From Flavobacteriaceae bacterium (GTDB lineage: Bacteria > Bacteroidota > Bacteroidia > Flavobacteriales > Flavobacteriaceae): 64,000 nt of DNA. The position numbers and the translations under genes were made by a program. The stretch's first letter is position 1. Every line of letters begins with the position of its first letter. Shown here in pieces: positions 6,873-47,875 of this stretch. The stretch lies in assembly GCA_024644745.1 (NCBI GenBank), contig JAHEHF010000002.1:1-64000 (forward strand), read 5' to 3'. Below the pieces are notes generated by a model. It did not search any database. It saw only the letters and a list, made by a program, of their open reading frames with translations, and was not told where the DNA came from.

Positions 6873-8054
6873 TTACGAATTTATGTGGTTGTATATTTTC
6901 CCCTGATTGGCTGTTATTTTGATGAATCCTTTGGCGTCTTCAGCGGTCCATCCTTCGTTTGTTTCTCCGTAACTGGCAAATGAAGCACTCATCAGATCAT
7001 GCGCTGAGGAGATCCCGTTCAAACTAAACCTGTAGGGGTGCAAGGTTACAAAAACATCTCCGCTTACATTTTTTTGGGTATCCGTTAAAAAGGCCTCAAT
7101 GTTTCTCATGACGGCATCGAGATATTGCCCTTCATGCAAGAGCATTCCGTACCAATTGCCGAGTTGTTCCTTATGATGCTGCTGCCATTTTGTAAGGGTG
7201 TGCTTTTCAAGCAAATGATGCGACTTGATGATGATCAGCGGAGCCGCTGCCTCAAATCCGACTCTACCCTTAATCCCGATGATCGTATCCCCAACATGAA
7301 TGTCTCTCCCTATGGCATAAGCAGAAGCAATCTTGCTGAGTGATTCGATGTTGTTGACAAAAGAATCCTCTTTGTCATCAATTGCCTTAAGTTCTCCCTG
7401 CTGAAAGGTCAGTTTTAGATTCCTTGGTGCTTCCTGGCTCAAGGCACTTGGATAGGCATCATCAGGAAGGCCTTCATGAGAAGTCAGGGTTTCCTGACCC
7501 CCGACACTGGTTCCCCACAAGCCTTTGTTGATTGAATACTTCGCCTTTTCCCATGGTAGGTCAACGCCATGCTCTTTGAGAAAATTGATTTCCTCCTGTC
7601 TTGATAATTTCAAATCCCTGATCGGAGTGACAATCTCAATTTCAGGTGCCAGGGTTTGAAAGATCATGTCAAATCGAACCTGATCATTACCTGCTCCAGT
7701 ACTTCCGTGTGCAATGAAATTGGCCCCCACCTCTTTTGCGTAATTGACAATTTCAATGGCCTGGACAATTCGCTCAGCGCTCACTGATAAAGGATAAGTA
7801 TTATTTTTCAAAACATTACCAAAAATGAGGTACTTGACCACCTTGTCGTAAAAGGTCTGAACCGCATCAATTGACTTGTAACTGCTTGCTCCTAACTGAA
7901 TAGCCTTCTTACCGATAGCATCGATCTCTTCGGCTTCAAAGCCTCCTGTGTTCACACTTACCGCATGCACTTCAAAATCTTCAACCTGTGAAAGGAATTT
8001 GGCACAATAAGATGTGTCCAGTCCGCCGCTGTATGCTAATACTAATTTTTTCAT
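6873..8054 (-). CDS. argG: Argininosuccinate synthase
   Basis: ATP-dependent condensation of citrulline and aspartate to argininosuccinate in the cytoplasm. The PP-loop AYSGGLDTS is at residues 8-16, followed by the family motifs IAHGSTGAGNDQVRF and SQEEINFL. The length of 393 residues is normal for the family. It is the second gene of the operon, 30 bp after the GNAT gene and 2 bp before argC. Placing argG at the head of the operon, far from argH, matches other Bacteroidota. Confidence 0.95.
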   Translation of the reverse strand: MKKLVLAYSGGLDTSYCAKFLSQVEDFEVHAVSVNTGGFEAEEIDAIGKKAIQLGASSYKSIDAVQTFYDKVVKYLIFGNVLKNNTYPLSVSAERIVQAIEIVNYAKEVGANFIAHGSTGAGNDQVRFDMIFQTLAPEIEIVTPIRDLKLSRQEEINFLKEHGVDLPWEKAKYSINKGLWGTSVGGQETLTSHEGLPDDAYPSALSQEAPRNLKLTFQQGELKAIDDKEDSFVNNIESLSKIASAYAIGRDIHVGDTIIGIKGRVGFEAAAPLIIIKSHHLLEKHTLTKWQQHHKEQLGNWYGMLLHEGQYLDAVMRNIEAFLTDTQKNVSGDVFVTLHPYRFSLNGISSAHDLMSASFASYGETNEGWTAEDAKGFIKITANQGKIYNHINS

Positions 8055-36134: not shown

Positions 36135-36575
36135 TTATTCAACATCAAATTTCATTAGAAGCTCCTTCCAGGAATATAGTTCGCCCCCATTTTCTTTTTG
36201 AGCCTCCGAAGCTTCCTGATCAGAAGCAAAACCTGTTAAATTGGCTCCCATGGGGCTTTTGATTTTTTCACTGATCAGATACTTGGCTTCTTGAGCAGGA
36301 TGCATAAATCCCGGTTGCATATAATCGGCTATCAATAAGATTTCTGCATAATGCCCCCCTTTTTCTCCGATGTCATTTACCATACATTCTATGGCATCAA
36401 ATTTAAATTGCTTTCCTTTTTTTGTGACGTATTGCGCAGAATGCTGCTGGTCCACAATCGTCATTTTACAAAATGAACAGGCATCAGTTCCGTAATTGAT
36501 CTGATCAGGTTCTATCCCACATGAGAAAAAAAGGCATAAAACGACTATAAAAGCAATATGGATTACTTTATTCAT
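36135..36575 (-). CDS. nosL: NosL copper-chaperone lipoprotein
   Basis: Lipoprotein of 146 residues (lipobox FFSC, Cys19). ACSFCKMTI (Cys33, Cys36, Met38) and the later FDAIECMV segment match the NosL family, which binds Cu(I) and passes copper to NosD for the CuZ site. Located 77 bp downstream of the nosB-like gene and directly before nosD. The length is slightly short compared with proteobacterial NosL. Confidence 0.92.
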   Translation of the reverse strand: MNKVIHIAFIVVLCLFFSCGIEPDQINYGTDACSFCKMTIVDQQHSAQYVTKKGKQFKFDAIECMVNDIGEKGGHYAEILLIADYMQPGFMHPAQEAKYLISEKIKSPMGANLTGFASDQEASEAQKENGGELYSWKELLMKFDVE

Positions 36576-37400: not shown

Positions 37401-39383
37401 TTATTCTATATCTACAGGGTCACCGTCAAGCGTATAAGAGATCGGGACACTGGAACCTTTTGGAGACACTCTCACATAGCCTTGCATTTCCTGATGCAGG
37501 GCCGAACAGAAGTCGGTGCAATAGAATGGCCATACACCTTCCTGCTTGGGTTCCCATACAAATGATTCTGTTTGACCGGGCATGATCAGCAATTCGGATG
37601 TATTTGCACCGATCATGGATACACCATGGGGCTGATCATAGTCCTGCTCGAGATTTGTAAAGTGGAAATACACTTTATCGCCAACCTGGATACCTTCAAT
37701 ATTGTCAGGAGCAAAATGTGAGCGAATCATGGTCATGTATACATGAACCACATTGCCTTCTCTTACCACTTTGGCCTCGGCCTCACTTTTAACAGCATAA
37801 GGATGCATATTCTCTTCCAGTTTGAAAAACTCTTTAGAATTCTTGGCCACAATATCTGCCGCAATACCTGCTGCATAATGGGGTTCTCCTACCGTTGGGA
37901 AATCGAGCAACAATTCCATTTTATCTCCGGAAATATCAAACAGCTGTGCTGACTGAGTAACCTCAGGACCCGTTGGAAGGTACCTGTCTTTGGTTATTTT
38001 GTTCATGGCAACCACATATTTACCAAAAGGCTTTCTTGAATTTCCTCCAGGAATCATCAGGTGACCCACAGAATAAAATGTTTTTTGTCTGTCAAGCACC
38101 TCCCATGTTCCCAATTTCCATTTAACAACCTCTGATGAGATAAAGAAAGTGGTATACGCATTTCCCTTACCATCAAACTCTGTGTGGAGCGGCCCGAGAC
38201 CAGGATTTTTCACAGCACCGGCCAGGGTTGCTTCATAAGACAGAATAGGAATACCATAGGCGTCTCCGTCAAAATCCTTATTTTCAATGGCTGTAAGCAT
38301 TTTACTGAAGGAGTGAACTGTCAATTCGGCGGCGAGTTTTCCACTTCCCACAATGTACTCACCGCTTGGATCCACATCACAACCATGCGGAGATTTTGGA
38401 GTTGGCATAAAGTAAATCGCACCCGGCACTTCTGTTGGGTCTACAACAAGAACTTCCTTCTTCATGGTAGAAGTGGCCATATGCGTCGTTTCATCATATA
38501 CATTATGCGCATAATTTGCAGGTACCATTTTTCCTCCACCGTTGTTCACATAAGCCTCAATTTTTTTCCAGTTGACGGCTGCTATAAAATCTTTGTCATT
38601 TTGAGAAGCATTGACCTCAAGCAATGAATTGGCTTCTTCTGTATTATAGGTTGAAAAGAAGAACCATCCGTGAGATGCACCCCTTCCCGGATGAGAAAGG
38701 TCATAATCAAAACCGGGCATCATGATCTGAAATTTAATATCCATTCTGCCATCTTCAGGGGCTACAGAAATAAAGGATAGAGCTCCTTTAAAATTCCCTT
38801 TGTATTCTGAAATTGGCATGTCTCTTTGAGGAAACGGTACCGAAAATCTGGTTCCGGCAACAACATACTCTGTGTTTTCGGTAACAAAAGAGGAACTGTG
38901 ATTCCCGGCCGAATTCGGCACTTCAATGATCTCAGTAGTCTCAAAGGTCGTCAAATCAATCTTAGCAATACGCGGCGTGTTGTTACCATTGATAAACACC
39001 CATCTTCCGTCTAACTCACCTGCGGTCTGAGAAATATCAGGGTGGTGAGAATCATCCCATGGAATAAAACCATGTGAAGTGTTCAACATCGGTTTTGTTT
39101 CTTCGTTAAACCCCCAGGCCTTTTCCGCATCCACAGAAAAAACAGGAATTATTTTAAATAATCTTCCTGAAGGCAGGCCATAAACAGATAGCTGACCACT
39201 GAACCCTCCCGATATAAAAGCATAATATTCATCGTGCTCTCCCGGGGCTACGTATACCTTCTCTGCAGCATTACCTGATAATGCACCCTGACTGGACGAT
39301 TTACCTGAATTCATATCACCACAGGAGACCAGCCATGAAGTAAGGACGGTAAGGGTAATGAAATATTTAAACATTGTTTTCAT
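37401..39383 (-). CDS. nosZ: Nitrous oxide reductase, clade II (Sec-type), lipoprotein
   Basis: Reduces N2O to N2 in the periplasm. The 660-residue protein has a Sec signal with lipobox WLVSC (no Tat twin-arginine), typical of clade II and suggesting a lipid anchor. The beta-propeller carries the CuZ histidines in DDSHHPDIS, SHGWFFFSTYN, PHGCDVDPSG and GPLHTEFDG. The C-terminal cupredoxin domain has the CuA motif CTDFCSALHQEM with Cys622, Cys626, His630 and Met633. The organism also encodes a cytochrome c, just upstream, as probable electron donor. No nosR or nosX gene is in the window, as is usual for clade II. Confidence 0.97.
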   Translation of the reverse strand: MKTMFKYFITLTVLTSWLVSCGDMNSGKSSSQGALSGNAAEKVYVAPGEHDEYYAFISGGFSGQLSVYGLPSGRLFKIIPVFSVDAEKAWGFNEETKPMLNTSHGFIPWDDSHHPDISQTAGELDGRWVFINGNNTPRIAKIDLTTFETTEIIEVPNSAGNHSSSFVTENTEYVVAGTRFSVPFPQRDMPISEYKGNFKGALSFISVAPEDGRMDIKFQIMMPGFDYDLSHPGRGASHGWFFFSTYNTEEANSLLEVNASQNDKDFIAAVNWKKIEAYVNNGGGKMVPANYAHNVYDETTHMATSTMKKEVLVVDPTEVPGAIYFMPTPKSPHGCDVDPSGEYIVGSGKLAAELTVHSFSKMLTAIENKDFDGDAYGIPILSYEATLAGAVKNPGLGPLHTEFDGKGNAYTTFFISSEVVKWKLGTWEVLDRQKTFYSVGHLMIPGGNSRKPFGKYVVAMNKITKDRYLPTGPEVTQSAQLFDISGDKMELLLDFPTVGEPHYAAGIAADIVAKNSKEFFKLEENMHPYAVKSEAEAKVVREGNVVHVYMTMIRSHFAPDNIEGIQVGDKVYFHFTNLEQDYDQPHGVSMIGANTSELLIMPGQTESFVWEPKQEGVWPFYCTDFCSALHQEMQGYVRVSPKGSSVPISYTLDGDPVDIE

Positions 39384-39403: not shown

Positions 39404-39880
39404 TTAATTTTTTGTTCTAAAATATTCTAAAAGGGCTCTTGCCTCTTCTTCAGTTAAATTCTGATTTGCCATTGGAGCTCCATTTGCTTCAGCAAGCAAC
39501 TGAATGGCAATGGGATCTTTTTTTATCATTTCTTCGGGATTCATGGTCATATTCATGATCCATTCCGGACTTCTCCTTTGCGTTACCCCTTTTAATGCAG
39601 GGCCAACAAATTTTTTACTGATTTTATGACAGGCCGTACATTTGGCTTTAAACACGACCTCACCTTCCGCCACCAAGGCGGGGTCAATTTCGCCCAGTGT
39701 TACACTGGTTATGGGTCCAATTCCTTTGTTTGACATAGGGTCCTCTGAACTCTCTTGTGCTTTTACCTCTTTTGAGGCAGGGACCTCTGAAACATCTTCT
39801 TTCGGTTTATCACCTCCACCACAGCTGGCGAGACTCAAAACAAGGACCATTGATATTATTAGTTTAAATTTCATTTTCAT
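39404..39880 (-). CDS. Monoheme cytochrome c lipoprotein, probable electron donor to NosZ
   Basis: A 158-residue lipoprotein (lipobox LASC, Cys20) with a low-complexity Lys/Glu/Ser linker (about 25-52) and a class I cytochrome c domain: heme site CTACH (81-85), GPALKGVTQR, and the Met ligand within NMTMNPEEM. It precedes nosZ by 20 bp on the same strand, so it most likely carries electrons to CuA. Small cytochrome c genes in this position are common in clade II nos clusters. Confidence 0.9.
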   Translation of the reverse strand: MKMKFKLIISMVLVLSLASCGGGDKPKEDVSEVPASKEVKAQESSEDPMSNKGIGPITSVTLGEIDPALVAEGEVVFKAKCTACHKISKKFVGPALKGVTQRRSPEWIMNMTMNPEEMIKKDPIAIQLLAEANGAPMANQNLTEEEARALLEYFRTKN

Positions 39881-39906: not shown

Positions 39907-40476
39907 TTATTCTGCCGGAACCAGAACGTCGTCAACAACGTGTATCCAGCCATTACTCACTTGGACGGTTTTTATGATTTTTGTTCCTCCCACATAAATT
40001 TCTCCATCCTTATCTTCGACTTCAAGGTAATTCCCTGATGCCATATAAAGTTTTCTTCCTTTTTTTGCTTCTTTTATCAATTGCTTCACAGGAAAATTAG
40101 CAGGAGCCACATGGTTGGTCAGGATAAATGCCAAAGTGGCCTTATTCTCGGGCTTCACAAGATTTTCAACTGTACCTTCCGGTAATTTTCCAAATGCTGT
40201 GTTTAAAGGTGCAAAGATTGTCAAGGGTCCGGCATTCACGACGGCATCTTCTACTCCTGCAGCTTCTATTGCAGCTACCAAAGTGCTGAAATCTTCTATT
40301 GATTTTGCCACTTGCAAGGCATTGGCATCAGACTCGCTGTCCTTTACCGCCGCCTGCCCCGAGAGCGTCTGCGTTTCAGTTACATTGGCATCATTGCCCT
40401 CACTGCTGGCTTTCTCATTTTTACACGAGACAAATGATATGAGTAATAATGTTATCAAGAATATCCTGGTTTTCAT
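39907..40476 (-). CDS. Fasciclin-domain lipoprotein heading the nos operon
   Basis: Start taken at 40476 (MKTRIFLITLLLISFVSC, lipobox FVSC); two codons upstream another ATG is in frame. The mature protein has an acidic Ser/Glu-rich linker and one FAS1 domain (about 60-187) with the two hallmark blocks PLTIFAPLNTAFGKLPEG and NGWIHVVDDVLVPAE. FAS1 domains mediate adhesion or protein contacts; a role in N2O respiration is not established. The 26 bp gap to the cytochrome gene and the lack of another promoter suggest it is the first gene of the nos transcript. Confidence 0.88.
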   Translation of the reverse strand: MKTRIFLITLLLISFVSCKNEKASSEGNDANVTETQTLSGQAAVKDSESDANALQVAKSIEDFSTLVAAIEAAGVEDAVVNAGPLTIFAPLNTAFGKLPEGTVENLVKPENKATLAFILTNHVAPANFPVKQLIKEAKKGRKLYMASGNYLEVEDKDGEIYVGGTKIIKTVQVSNGWIHVVDDVLVPAE

Positions 40477-40521
40477 AATCAAAAAATTAAGTTAGTTAAA
40501 ATTTGTAATTTGACACATCAA

Positions 40522-40529
40522 CAAAAATA
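40522..40529 (-). promoter_or_regulatory. Probable promoter -7 element of the nos operon
   Basis: Minus strand reads TATTTTTG, matching TAnnTTTG, 46 bases before the fasciclin start. An inverted repeat TTGA-CACA-TCAA at 40510-40521 lies just downstream, near the expected transcription start, where a repressor could bind. The divergent Rrf2 regulator is the obvious candidate, but its site in this phylum is not known to me. Confidence 0.45.
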
Positions 40530-40599
40530 TGTAACATTAGTAACCTAAAACATGATAATTGTCACATAAAGGATAATTTTATCTTTTATATATTTGTAC

Positions 40600-41028
40600 A
40601 TGCTAAACAGAGAGAGTAAATACGCCATCAGGGGGGTCATTTATTTGGCGATGAATGCTTCCAAAACCAATAAATTGGGATCAAAAGAAGTTGGTCAAAA
40701 AATAAAGGTGCCCTTGCCTTTTCTTGCTAAAATATTTCAGCATCTCAGCAAAGAAAACCTGATCAGTTCGACCAAAGGGCCACACGGGGGTTTCTTCCTT
40801 ACCGATGAACAGTTATCAGGAAATCTTCTTGCCATTATTGCCTGTATCGATGGCCTGGACAGTTTTAAAACCTGTTTTCTGGGATTACCCGCATGCAGCG
40901 ATGATAACCCCTGCGCCATTCATCACCTGAATGCCGAATTCAGAGAGCGGATGCTTACCGAATTAAAAAAAAGAAGCATTGCCGATTTTGCTGAGGATGC
41001 ATTATCCGGAAAATCATCTATTTTTTAA
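40600..41028 (+). CDS. Rrf2-family transcriptional regulator with Fe-S cysteines (NsrR/IscR-like)
   Basis: Start ATG at 40600 (MLNRESKYAIRG); 142 residues. N-terminal winged helix with KYAIRGVIYLA and the recognition region STKGPHGGFFL. Three cysteines, Cys92, Cys99 and Cys105 in TCFLGLPACSDDNPC, are spaced like the Fe-S ligands of NsrR and IscR, so it probably senses nitric oxide, oxygen or Fe-S status. It is transcribed divergently from the nos operon with a 123 bp gap, so it is the likely local regulator. Which signal it senses is inference. Confidence 0.85.
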   Translation: MLNRESKYAIRGVIYLAMNASKTNKLGSKEVGQKIKVPLPFLAKIFQHLSKENLISSTKGPHGGFFLTDEQLSGNLLAIIACIDGLDSFKTCFLGLPACSDDNPCAIHHLNAEFRERMLTELKKRSIADFAEDALSGKSSIF

Positions 41029-45430: not shown

Positions 45431-45467
45431 AAAAAAAGTCCGGGGAAAATATCCCGGGCTTTTTTTA
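45431..45467. terminator. Bidirectional terminator between pruA and the 59-residue gene
   Basis: Stem GTCCGGG / CCCGGGC (45438-45444 with 45453-45459, one G-U pair) flanked by an A run on the left and a T run on the right, so it can stop transcripts from both sides. It overlaps the stop codon of the small minus-strand gene. Confidence 0.85.
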
Positions 45468-45644
45468 TGCCCCCTCCATTTTATCGGCATCTGGCAGTAA
45501 GCCAACCAGTTTCTGAGGATCGTGTATTAAAATTGGAATGTGTTGGGCGCAGATATAAAATGCTGAATCCTTATGATAAAATTTTGTCACCGGCATTTCA
45601 AGCTGGCTCTTTCGGCATACGAGGCATTCTCTTTGATCTTTCAT
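45465..45644 (-). CDS. Small Cys/His protein, putative zinc binder (59 residues)
   Basis: A short gene in the 351 bp gap between pruA and kynU. It begins MKDQRECLVCRKSQLEMPV and ends with TAA inside the bidirectional terminator. Four residues are placed like a zinc site: Cys7-x2-Cys10 near the N-terminus and Cys32-x2-His35 in YICAQHIP, followed by LVGLLPDAD. It is on the same strand as kynU, 116 bp downstream, and could be the last gene of the kynurenine operon. Support for coding: start and stop fit a tidy gap, the composition is protein-like and the Cys/His spacing is non-random. I recognise no named family, and the function is unknown. Confidence 0.72.
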   Translation of the reverse strand: MKDQRECLVCRKSQLEMPVTKFYHKDSAFYICAQHIPILIHDPQKLVGLLPDADKMEGA

Positions 45645-45760
45645 ATATTATTGATTTAAACAGGTCAAAATTAGTTCATCATAAAAAACCAAAACATGAC
45701 ATAACTTAGGCTTTCGGGTATTTTCAAAAAAATTTAATCTGACATGAAGCTGCAATCAGA

Positions 45761-47038: not shown

Positions 47039-47875
47039 TCAGATTTCTAGCGAATTAAGTATTTTTTGCAAAGGGTAAATCAGGGGACGACTCGGTGAAG
47101 CATCAGATACAAAGGGCGCGATCTGAAGATTCAACAGGTAGTTCCCGTCCTTAATTTCATCTGGCACATAAATCAATTCAGTGATCGTTTTATGAACTTT
47201 GGCATCAGCTCCTTTTTCATGACTTTCAAACTCCATATTCCAAAAAATATGATGTGCACTCAGCTTTCCTTCATCAGATGACCGGTCAACGGAGGGTAAA
47301 TCCACCAAAAGGTGGTCGACTCCTATCTCTGACAGATAAGACATTGCTTCCATCGAAAAAAACGCTGCGTTTTCTGAGGAATACCTCCTTTTCTTCTTAG
47401 ACTGATCATTAGGTAAGGTCCTGATCAAAAGTGCCTTTTGAAAGCCCTCCTCACCTGACTCCAATGCCTTTTCCAATTGTTGTCTCGTGATATAAACATC
47501 CTTCGAATTTTTCTCGGGTATATAGCTTTCGGCATGATCAACTGCCTTGACGGGCGCAACACTGATCAGTGTTGCGGGAATGAATGAATCAACCAGCTGC
47601 TCCTGAATGGAATAGCGCTTATGGGTGAGGTGACCAATACATTCTGTGTGTGTACCATTACAGTGAGGGATCATTGAGATCCGTTCAAAATTGCAACCAC
47701 CACCTCGTCTTGTGTCCCCAACAAAACCATCCTTCTGATAGGCCTGAGATGCCGCATGCTCAACATCATACATATTTGGTTGTTCCCCGTTAAATCTCAA
47801 GGGAATCGATATATCATGATAATTGTTCACCTGTACATGGTACTCATGCCCTCTGACTGTAAAATGCAGCTTCAT
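47039..47875 (-). CDS. Cyclase-family protein, probable kynurenine formamidase (KynB role)
   Basis: A 278-residue metal-dependent hydrolase of the cyclase family. It should hydrolyse N-formylkynurenine, the step between its two neighbours. The family motif HxGTHxDxPxH is altered to HCNGTHTECIGH (residues 71-82): one residue is inserted before GTH, Asp is Glu78 and Pro is missing. The N-terminal HDISIPLRFNG and later LLVDLPSVDR match the family. The divergent motif leaves the metal chemistry unproved, but location between tryptophan dioxygenase and kynureninase makes the role likely. Confidence 0.8.
   Translation of the reverse strand: MKLHFTVRGHEYHVQVNNYHDISIPLRFNGEQPNMYDVEHAASQAYQKDGFVGDTRRGGGCNFERISMIPHCNGTHTECIGHLTHKRYSIQEQLVDSFIPATLISVAPVKAVDHAESYIPEKNSKDVYITRQQLEKALESGEEGFQKALLIRTLPNDQSKKKRRYSSENAAFFSMEAMSYLSEIGVDHLLVDLPSVDRSSDEGKLSAHHIFWNMEFESHEKGADAKVHKTITELIYVPDEIKDGNYLLNLQIAPFVSDASPSRPLIYPLQKILNSLEI

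Follow-up and report, generated by a model that had tools for sequence, protein, structure and literature searches.

What is a 59-codon open reading frame doing between kynureninase and a transcription terminator, and does it belong to either of the catabolic pathways beside it? In the 64,000-nucleotide stretch of a Flavobacteriaceae contig analysed here (the window), this frame starts with ATG and occupies 45465-45644 on the minus strand, the borders first described for it; its product is MKDQRECLVCRKSQLEMPVTKFYHKDSAFYICAQHIPILIHDPQKLVGLLPDADKMEGA. A gap of 116 bp separates the end of kynU (45761) from the start of the small gene, whose own end abuts a hairpin terminator (stem 45440..45457, minus strand). 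T/A tracts flank the hairpin on both sides, and it is common to the small gene and the convergent P5C dehydrogenase gene. The coordinates and the two-sided hairpin thus agree with the preliminary description, in which a short minus-strand gene fitted the space between kynU and a terminator. The literature titles and abstract openings that we searched contain no description of the small protein or of the operator discussed below.

The small open reading frame is a conserved gene

Relatives were counted at E ≤ 1e-3, with the window's own genome included in every count. They occur in 16 of 60 near genomes, in 12 of 249 family genomes (one of them, G667, matching over residues 8-40 only) and in 18 of 395 genomes of the phylum, where one, G440, is a partial match with two stops; we excluded G440 from the 17 phylum carriers and placed it among the 378 non-carriers. 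Relatives are also carried by 15 named contigs, Maribacter, Lutibacter and a Bacteroidales MAG among them, and two class searches of 129 genomes each, apparently of one class, returned 11 matches each, ten of them in common. An origin on a phage or plasmid was rejected, as tblastn found no match at E ≤ 0.1 in 72,556 plasmid and 50,697 phage records and none of 11 candidate stretches on viral contigs was a relative. A candidate fusion in G741, a 191-aa open frame, was rejected by eye: the DNA is GC-rich, the frame long, and a start lies inside it.

We computed dN/dS on the 12 pairs least diverged at synonymous sites, and obtained 0.02-0.07 for the six same-genus pairs and 0.17-0.38 for the six cross-genus pairs; the mean pN/pS over 276 pairs is 0.25. 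Of the 59 codon columns, 58 vary at the third position and 23 at the second. An antisense frame on the plus strand (45467-45709) was rejected, its frame being broken by stops in 19 of 24 orthologues. The small gene is real, conserved and under purifying selection, and the earlier suggestion that this short frame is a genuine gene is borne out by its relatives in Bacteroidota and by its low dN/dS.

The neighbouring pathways do not account for the gene

The preliminary description linked the gene, from its location, to the kynurenine pathway or to proline catabolism. Two observations would fit a small component or regulator of either pathway: in 8 of 14 own-genus carriers the gene immediately upstream, in the same orientation, is kynU, and a P5C dehydrogenase gene is found near the small gene in 14 of 45 loci (10 of the own genus, plus L027, L059, L079 and L080). 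Against this, kynU is missing from the flank in the other 6 of 14 own-genus carriers, and no homologue stands beside the gene at any of 35 loci outside the genus, some of which end at contig ends and a few of which are near-duplicates. Tryptophan dioxygenase, present in 168 of 395 phylum genomes overall, shows no enrichment among carriers (4/17 vs 164/378, p=0.13). The P5C dehydrogenase gene is convergent with the small gene, pointing at it across a terminator in the window and with an extra open reading frame between the two in L018, L020 and L080. The small gene also has its own predicted promoter inside the 116-bp gap, with an operator like those that precede nos operons. Because synteny, the separate promoter and co-occurrence all speak against it, we reject a kynurenine or proline function, which we regard as most improbable; neither linkage nor co-occurrence places the gene in the kynurenine pathway.

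No common theme was seen among the neighbours at 20 distant loci that we scanned. They include a DUF1028 protein with a TonB receptor, a pyridoxal decarboxylase, an amino-acid permease, GatA, glutamine synthetase, HutI, a creatininase-family protein and a 2-oxoacid dehydrogenase E2, among others. In distant genomes, proteins of about 180 aa closely flank the small gene in apparent operons (L069:6164-6694 and 6919-7467; L073:6441-6983), and for these neither Pfam nor NCBIfam gave a match at the thresholds applied. Within the window, a frame flanked by kynU and tryptophan dioxygenase (47039-47875, minus strand) perhaps encodes a divergent kynurenine formamidase; its match to arylformamidase is weak, at 34.3 bits out of 223.

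A probable single zinc finger with a conserved tail

Across 31 distinct members of the family, C7, C10, C32, P37 and H41 are invariant, and position 35 is occupied by His (24 members) or Cys (7 members). The Cys7/Cys10 and Cys32/His35 pairs pointed out in the preliminary description are therefore present and conserved, and the protein has the two metal-ligand pairs of a small zinc finger, in the arrangement CxxC-x21-CxxH. Exchange of His and Cys at position 35 is what a zinc site would tolerate and what would be expected of a metal ligand, and the protein probably binds zinc. Its C-terminal tail is also conserved, as P-x-L-I-H-x-P-x-x-L-x-G-x-L-P-[GD]-A.

No Pfam or NCBIfam model matches the window protein above its cutoff. 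Among the 31 members, the best weak Pfam matches are to Vfa1 (15 members, best E 4e-4), followed by one member matching the FPG/IleRS finger (E 0.0017) and one matching the ClpX finger PF06689 (E 0.0038); in the NCBIfam search of members E values went no lower than 0.04, and in a PDB sequence search no lower than 0.05. An AlphaFold2 model shows a beta hairpin and short helices at middling confidence (pLDDT 76.7, pTM 0.56). Searched with this model, Foldseek returned weak zinc fingers, headed by HVO_2753 at E 0.7, and VIA placed the ClpX zinc-binding domain in its first row, with the maximum Z of 3.7 (rmsd 4.9, 43 aligned residues) tied with many rows.

Likeness to the N-terminal zinc-binding domain of ClpX (PF06689, zf-C4_ClpX) extends to the layout C-x-x-C-x-[KR]-x-x-x-E ... 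[YW]-I-C-x-x-C, which the small protein has too. A profile of the small protein matched a ClpX finger profile with a probability of 83% and a score of 29.3, whereas 150 Cys-preserving shuffles reached at most 23.8; the ClpX profile was made from the fingers of 10 of 12 ClpX loci, two loci falling outside the extraction pattern. There are also differences: the small protein has 21 residues between its pairs where ClpX has 18, its fourth ligand is mostly His (CxxH in 24/31) where ClpX is C4, and it stands alone, with no AAA+ domain and with a different tail. The window protein has no match to PF06689 at E ≤ 10, and in 12 carrier genomes searched with PF06689 at E ≤ 1 the small gene is not returned. 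By Pfam cutoff, C4 ligands, 18-residue spacing and AAA+ fusion alike it falls outside PF06689, and we describe the relation of the two sequences as resemblance, not membership. Vfa1 and FPG/IleRS fingers fit single members equally well or better than ClpX does. The Vfa1/VATC type finger (PF08432) shares the pattern CxxC ... FYxCPxH, but the window protein scores 13.1 bits against a cutoff of 27.3, and the 179-position model covers the small protein in the finger region only. The best member reaches E 4e-4, and by its score the window protein lies outside that family as well. What emerges is an unnamed, conserved family with a probable single zinc finger.

Such a finger could also be imagined as a zinc ribbon associated with ribosomes or RNA and produced while cells grow slowly under anaerobic conditions, and many of the 50 VIA rows are indeed ribosomal zinc proteins, at Z about 3. 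Values of Z under 4 are uninformative, however, the window protein is not basic, as its 8 Lys/Arg are balanced by 8 Asp/Glu (counted by hand), and the gene is present in just 18 of 395 phylum genomes. We consider a ribosomal role improbable.

A predicted operator 22 nt before the -7 box of the small gene

A -7 box, TAATTTTG, of the Bacteroidota type TAnnTTTG lies at 45666..45673 (minus strand), 21 nt before the ATG. Exactly 22 nt before this box lies a predicted CRP/FNR-type operator, CTAAGTTATGTCAT (45696..45709, minus strand), a 14-bp inverted repeat of the form 5-4-5. Work on F. psychrophilum puts TAnnTTTG at -12 to -5 (PMC9723704). By that measure the repeat would span -48 to -35 and be centred at -41.5. 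A centre at -41.5 is the position of class II CRP/FNR sites. Compared with FNR/CRP class II promoters, the repeat and its centre are alike; the differences are a -7 box TAnnTTTG in place of -10/-35 elements, and one half-site at the small gene that is often TTAG/CTAA rather than ATGAY.

In Flavobacteriaceae the operator takes the form ATGAY-N4-RTTAG, or reversed CTAAN-N4-RTCAT, 22 nt before TAnnTTTG. We scored it with the pattern HTRAB-N4-VTYAD plus the TAnnTTTG box in 27 distinct family-type promoters, hand-picked from 46 as those of the same genus, the same family and named Flavobacteriaceae/Flavobacteriales contigs; the 33-residue partial match (G667/L057/L087) and the start-less frame of L041 were excluded from the counts. 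The exact layout is present in 17 of the 27 (9/13 own-genus, 8/14 others). Maribacter polysaccharolyticus and M. luteus (L026/L028) are cultured carriers that have the operator. When spacings of 5-60 nt were scanned, these 17 all fell at 22 nt, with one each at 6, 10 and 25, and shuffled upstream regions gave the exact layout in 0.005 of 27. Other genes in the same loci served as a control that is lenient because it includes genes inside operons: 4 of 257 had the exact layout, and 9 of 257 had it with a looser box and spacing. Three of the four exact control matches precede nos operons and the fourth a pyruvate/2-oxoacid-ferredoxin-oxidoreductase-like gene.

Since 10 of the 27 family-type promoters have no exact layout, and none of the 19 promoters outside that set has it, this regulation is not common to the whole protein family. 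A TTG-to-box element at 17-24 nt spacing was considered and dropped, occurring in one promoter, L029, among those listed; the operator seems to take its place.

The same layout precedes nitrous oxide reductase operons

Five kilobases from the small gene, the window carries a nos (N2O reductase) operon under the same promoter layout with one letter changed. Its operator, GTGACAATTATCAT (40552..40565, minus strand), departs from the family pattern in the first letter, lies 22 nt before a TAnnTTTG-type box, TATTTTTG (40522-40529), and also faces a divergent gene for an Rrf2-family regulator (40594..41028, plus strand; TIGR00738, 86.2 bits, cutoff 73.3). The operon, on the minus strand, begins with a fasciclin-domain protein (39907..40482) and a c-type cytochrome (39404..39880; NCBIfam cytochrome models match below their cutoffs), followed by a Sec-dependent (clade II) NosZ (37401..39383; TIGR04246, 935.8 bits, cutoff 625). 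A further product (36135..36575, minus strand), with no NCBIfam match, we take from its sequence to be NosL-like.

We examined the nos promoters of 20 further NosZ loci of our own selection, 8 from small-gene carriers and 12 from non-carriers. The exact layout precedes the operon in 13 (L161, L163-L166, L168, L171-L173, L175-L178); in L179 the layout differs by a box that ends in A, and L162, L167, L169, L170, L174 and L180 are without it. The palindrome ahead of these clade II operons resembles ATGAY-N4-RTCAT. Six of the eight carriers have the layout at nos, and of these, five show it without deviation at the small gene as well, while in one (G562) the box there ends in A; in the remaining two, G352 and G052, it is absent from both promoters. 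The 14-bp palindrome 22 nt before the box is thus likely a general nos activator site in Flavobacteriaceae, and in this family the small gene may often be under a CRP/FNR-type class II promoter of the kind used for N2O reduction, with the window copy at 45696-45709 carrying the 5-4-5 operator at -41.5 expected of such a regulon. As a separate observation, G037:C136, G021:C368 and G010:C279 hold adjacent NosZ-like matches in long open frames (~900 aa; 590-740 aa) with NosZ scores far below those of ordinary copies.

The position of the Rrf2 gene raises the alternative that its product binds the palindrome, which would place the small gene in an Rrf2 (NO/Fe-S) and not a CRP/FNR regulon. The Rrf2 gene and nos are divergent and have the site in common, and PMC6264515 notes Rrf2 genes beside clade II nos clusters. 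Yet a site at -41.5 is in an activator position and not over the start, the site precedes genes elsewhere in a congeneric genome, and the nos sites of L163, L173 and L175-L178 have no Rrf2 match in the surrounding 14 kb. We therefore judge control by Rrf2 to be unlikely and retain a CRP/FNR-family activator as the preferred reading.

Carriers of the small gene often encode NosZ

NosZ is over cutoff in 127 of 395 phylum genomes. It is found in 12 of 17 small-gene carriers (G000, G191, G352, G072, G113, G151, G189, G205, G284, G292, G350 and G441) vs 115 of 378 others (one-sided Fisher p=0.001, kinship ignored), and outside the window's own family in 9 of 14 carriers vs 102 of 340 (p=0.01, kinship again ignored). 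The remaining five phylum carriers (G136, G154, G296, G307 and G311) are without it, and most NosZ genomes are without the small gene. NosZ is also over cutoff in 22 of 30 further genomes. Within the own genus (G001-G021) it occurs in 12 of 13 carriers vs 4 of 8 non-carriers, and another two of the non-carriers hold fragments; the contrast is weak because several genomes are incomplete. Six of nine other carriers have it (G479, G493, G561, G562, G037 and G052); G574 has a fragment, and G548 and G575 have none over cutoff.

This enrichment, together with the promoter layout common to nos operons and three invariant thiolate ligands, would also suit a zinc or redox/NO switch, in which the CxxC-CxxH site frees its zinc upon nitrosation or oxidation and so reports nitrosative stress. 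However, alternation between His and Cys at the fourth ligand is typical of structural zinc as well, a search of Pfam and NCBIfam for DNA-binding or sensor domains found none, and 5 of 17 carriers have no NosZ. We think a switch of this kind rather improbable.

Predicted sites elsewhere in a congeneric genome

A sample of the wider regulon was taken from the congeneric genome G011, in 60 stretches of 20 kb and one 16-kb stretch that covers the small gene along with the beginning of nos (1.216 Mb in all; 156 sites inside long open reading frames were skipped). The strict palindrome plus TAnnTTTG gave 7 matches over spacings of 5-60, 5 of them at 21-22 nt. These five precede genes for pyruvate phosphate dikinase, a glyoxalase-fold protein that we read as methylmalonyl-CoA epimerase, an unclear L131 gene, nos and Rrf2, the last two sites coming from the added 16-kb stretch. 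With a box ending in A, sites were seen at a molybdopterin oxidoreductase, with a multihaem cytochrome across the same site, and at a protein with a cyclic-nucleotide-binding domain; two universal stress proteins have sites with no recognised box. Single loose sites mean little, because many others precede unremarkable genes, and the anaerobic flavour that we see in this list is our own reading of it. One gene with the same kind of operator upstream (L107:17185-18924, plus strand) encodes a 580-aa protein with a C-terminal cyclic-nucleotide-binding domain and, by eye, a FAD-binding look at its N-terminus; it is a possible sensor of the regulon.

Proposed role and implications

On balance, we favour the reading that the small protein is a cytosolic, stand-alone zinc-finger adaptor, induced in oxygen scarcity by a CRP/FNR-family activator together with the nos operon. 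When oxygen is scarce, Flavobacteriaceae would make this single-zinc-finger protein after the activator binds the 14-bp operator at -41.5 and aids RNA polymerase at the TAnnTTTG box, turning on the small gene, the nos operon for N2O reduction and other anaerobic genes. Cys7, Cys10, Cys32 and His35 would hold one zinc, forming a ClpX-like finger, and the conserved tail may be a surface for docking on a partner; were that so, the protein would act as an adaptor and not as an enzyme. The zinc, the identity of the activator and the oxygen signal are what we infer from the sequences, and the adaptor role and its partner are our guess. A bolder version, which we hold to be distinctly improbable, is that a ClpX-type finger, freed as a separate 59-aa protein and induced in anoxia along with N2O reduction, mimics the finger with which ClpX binds adaptors and competes for or redirects the adaptors of ClpXP. 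If true, it would readjust how Bacteroidota turn over their proteins as they change to anaerobic respiration.

N2O is a greenhouse gas that clade II NosZ bacteria can consume, and many of these are Bacteroidota, with NosZ in 127 of the 395 genomes surveyed here. PMC6264515 describes information on nos regulation outside Proteobacteria as limited, and PMC8510549 reports that its MAGs of Ignavibacteria, Flavobacteriales and Saprospiraceae gave no evidence of denitrification being under CRP/FNR control. As a rule for how nos is controlled in Flavobacteriaceae, the exact 22-nt operator spacing can be tested, and the predicted operator would place an unnamed small zinc protein in a regulon shared with nos.
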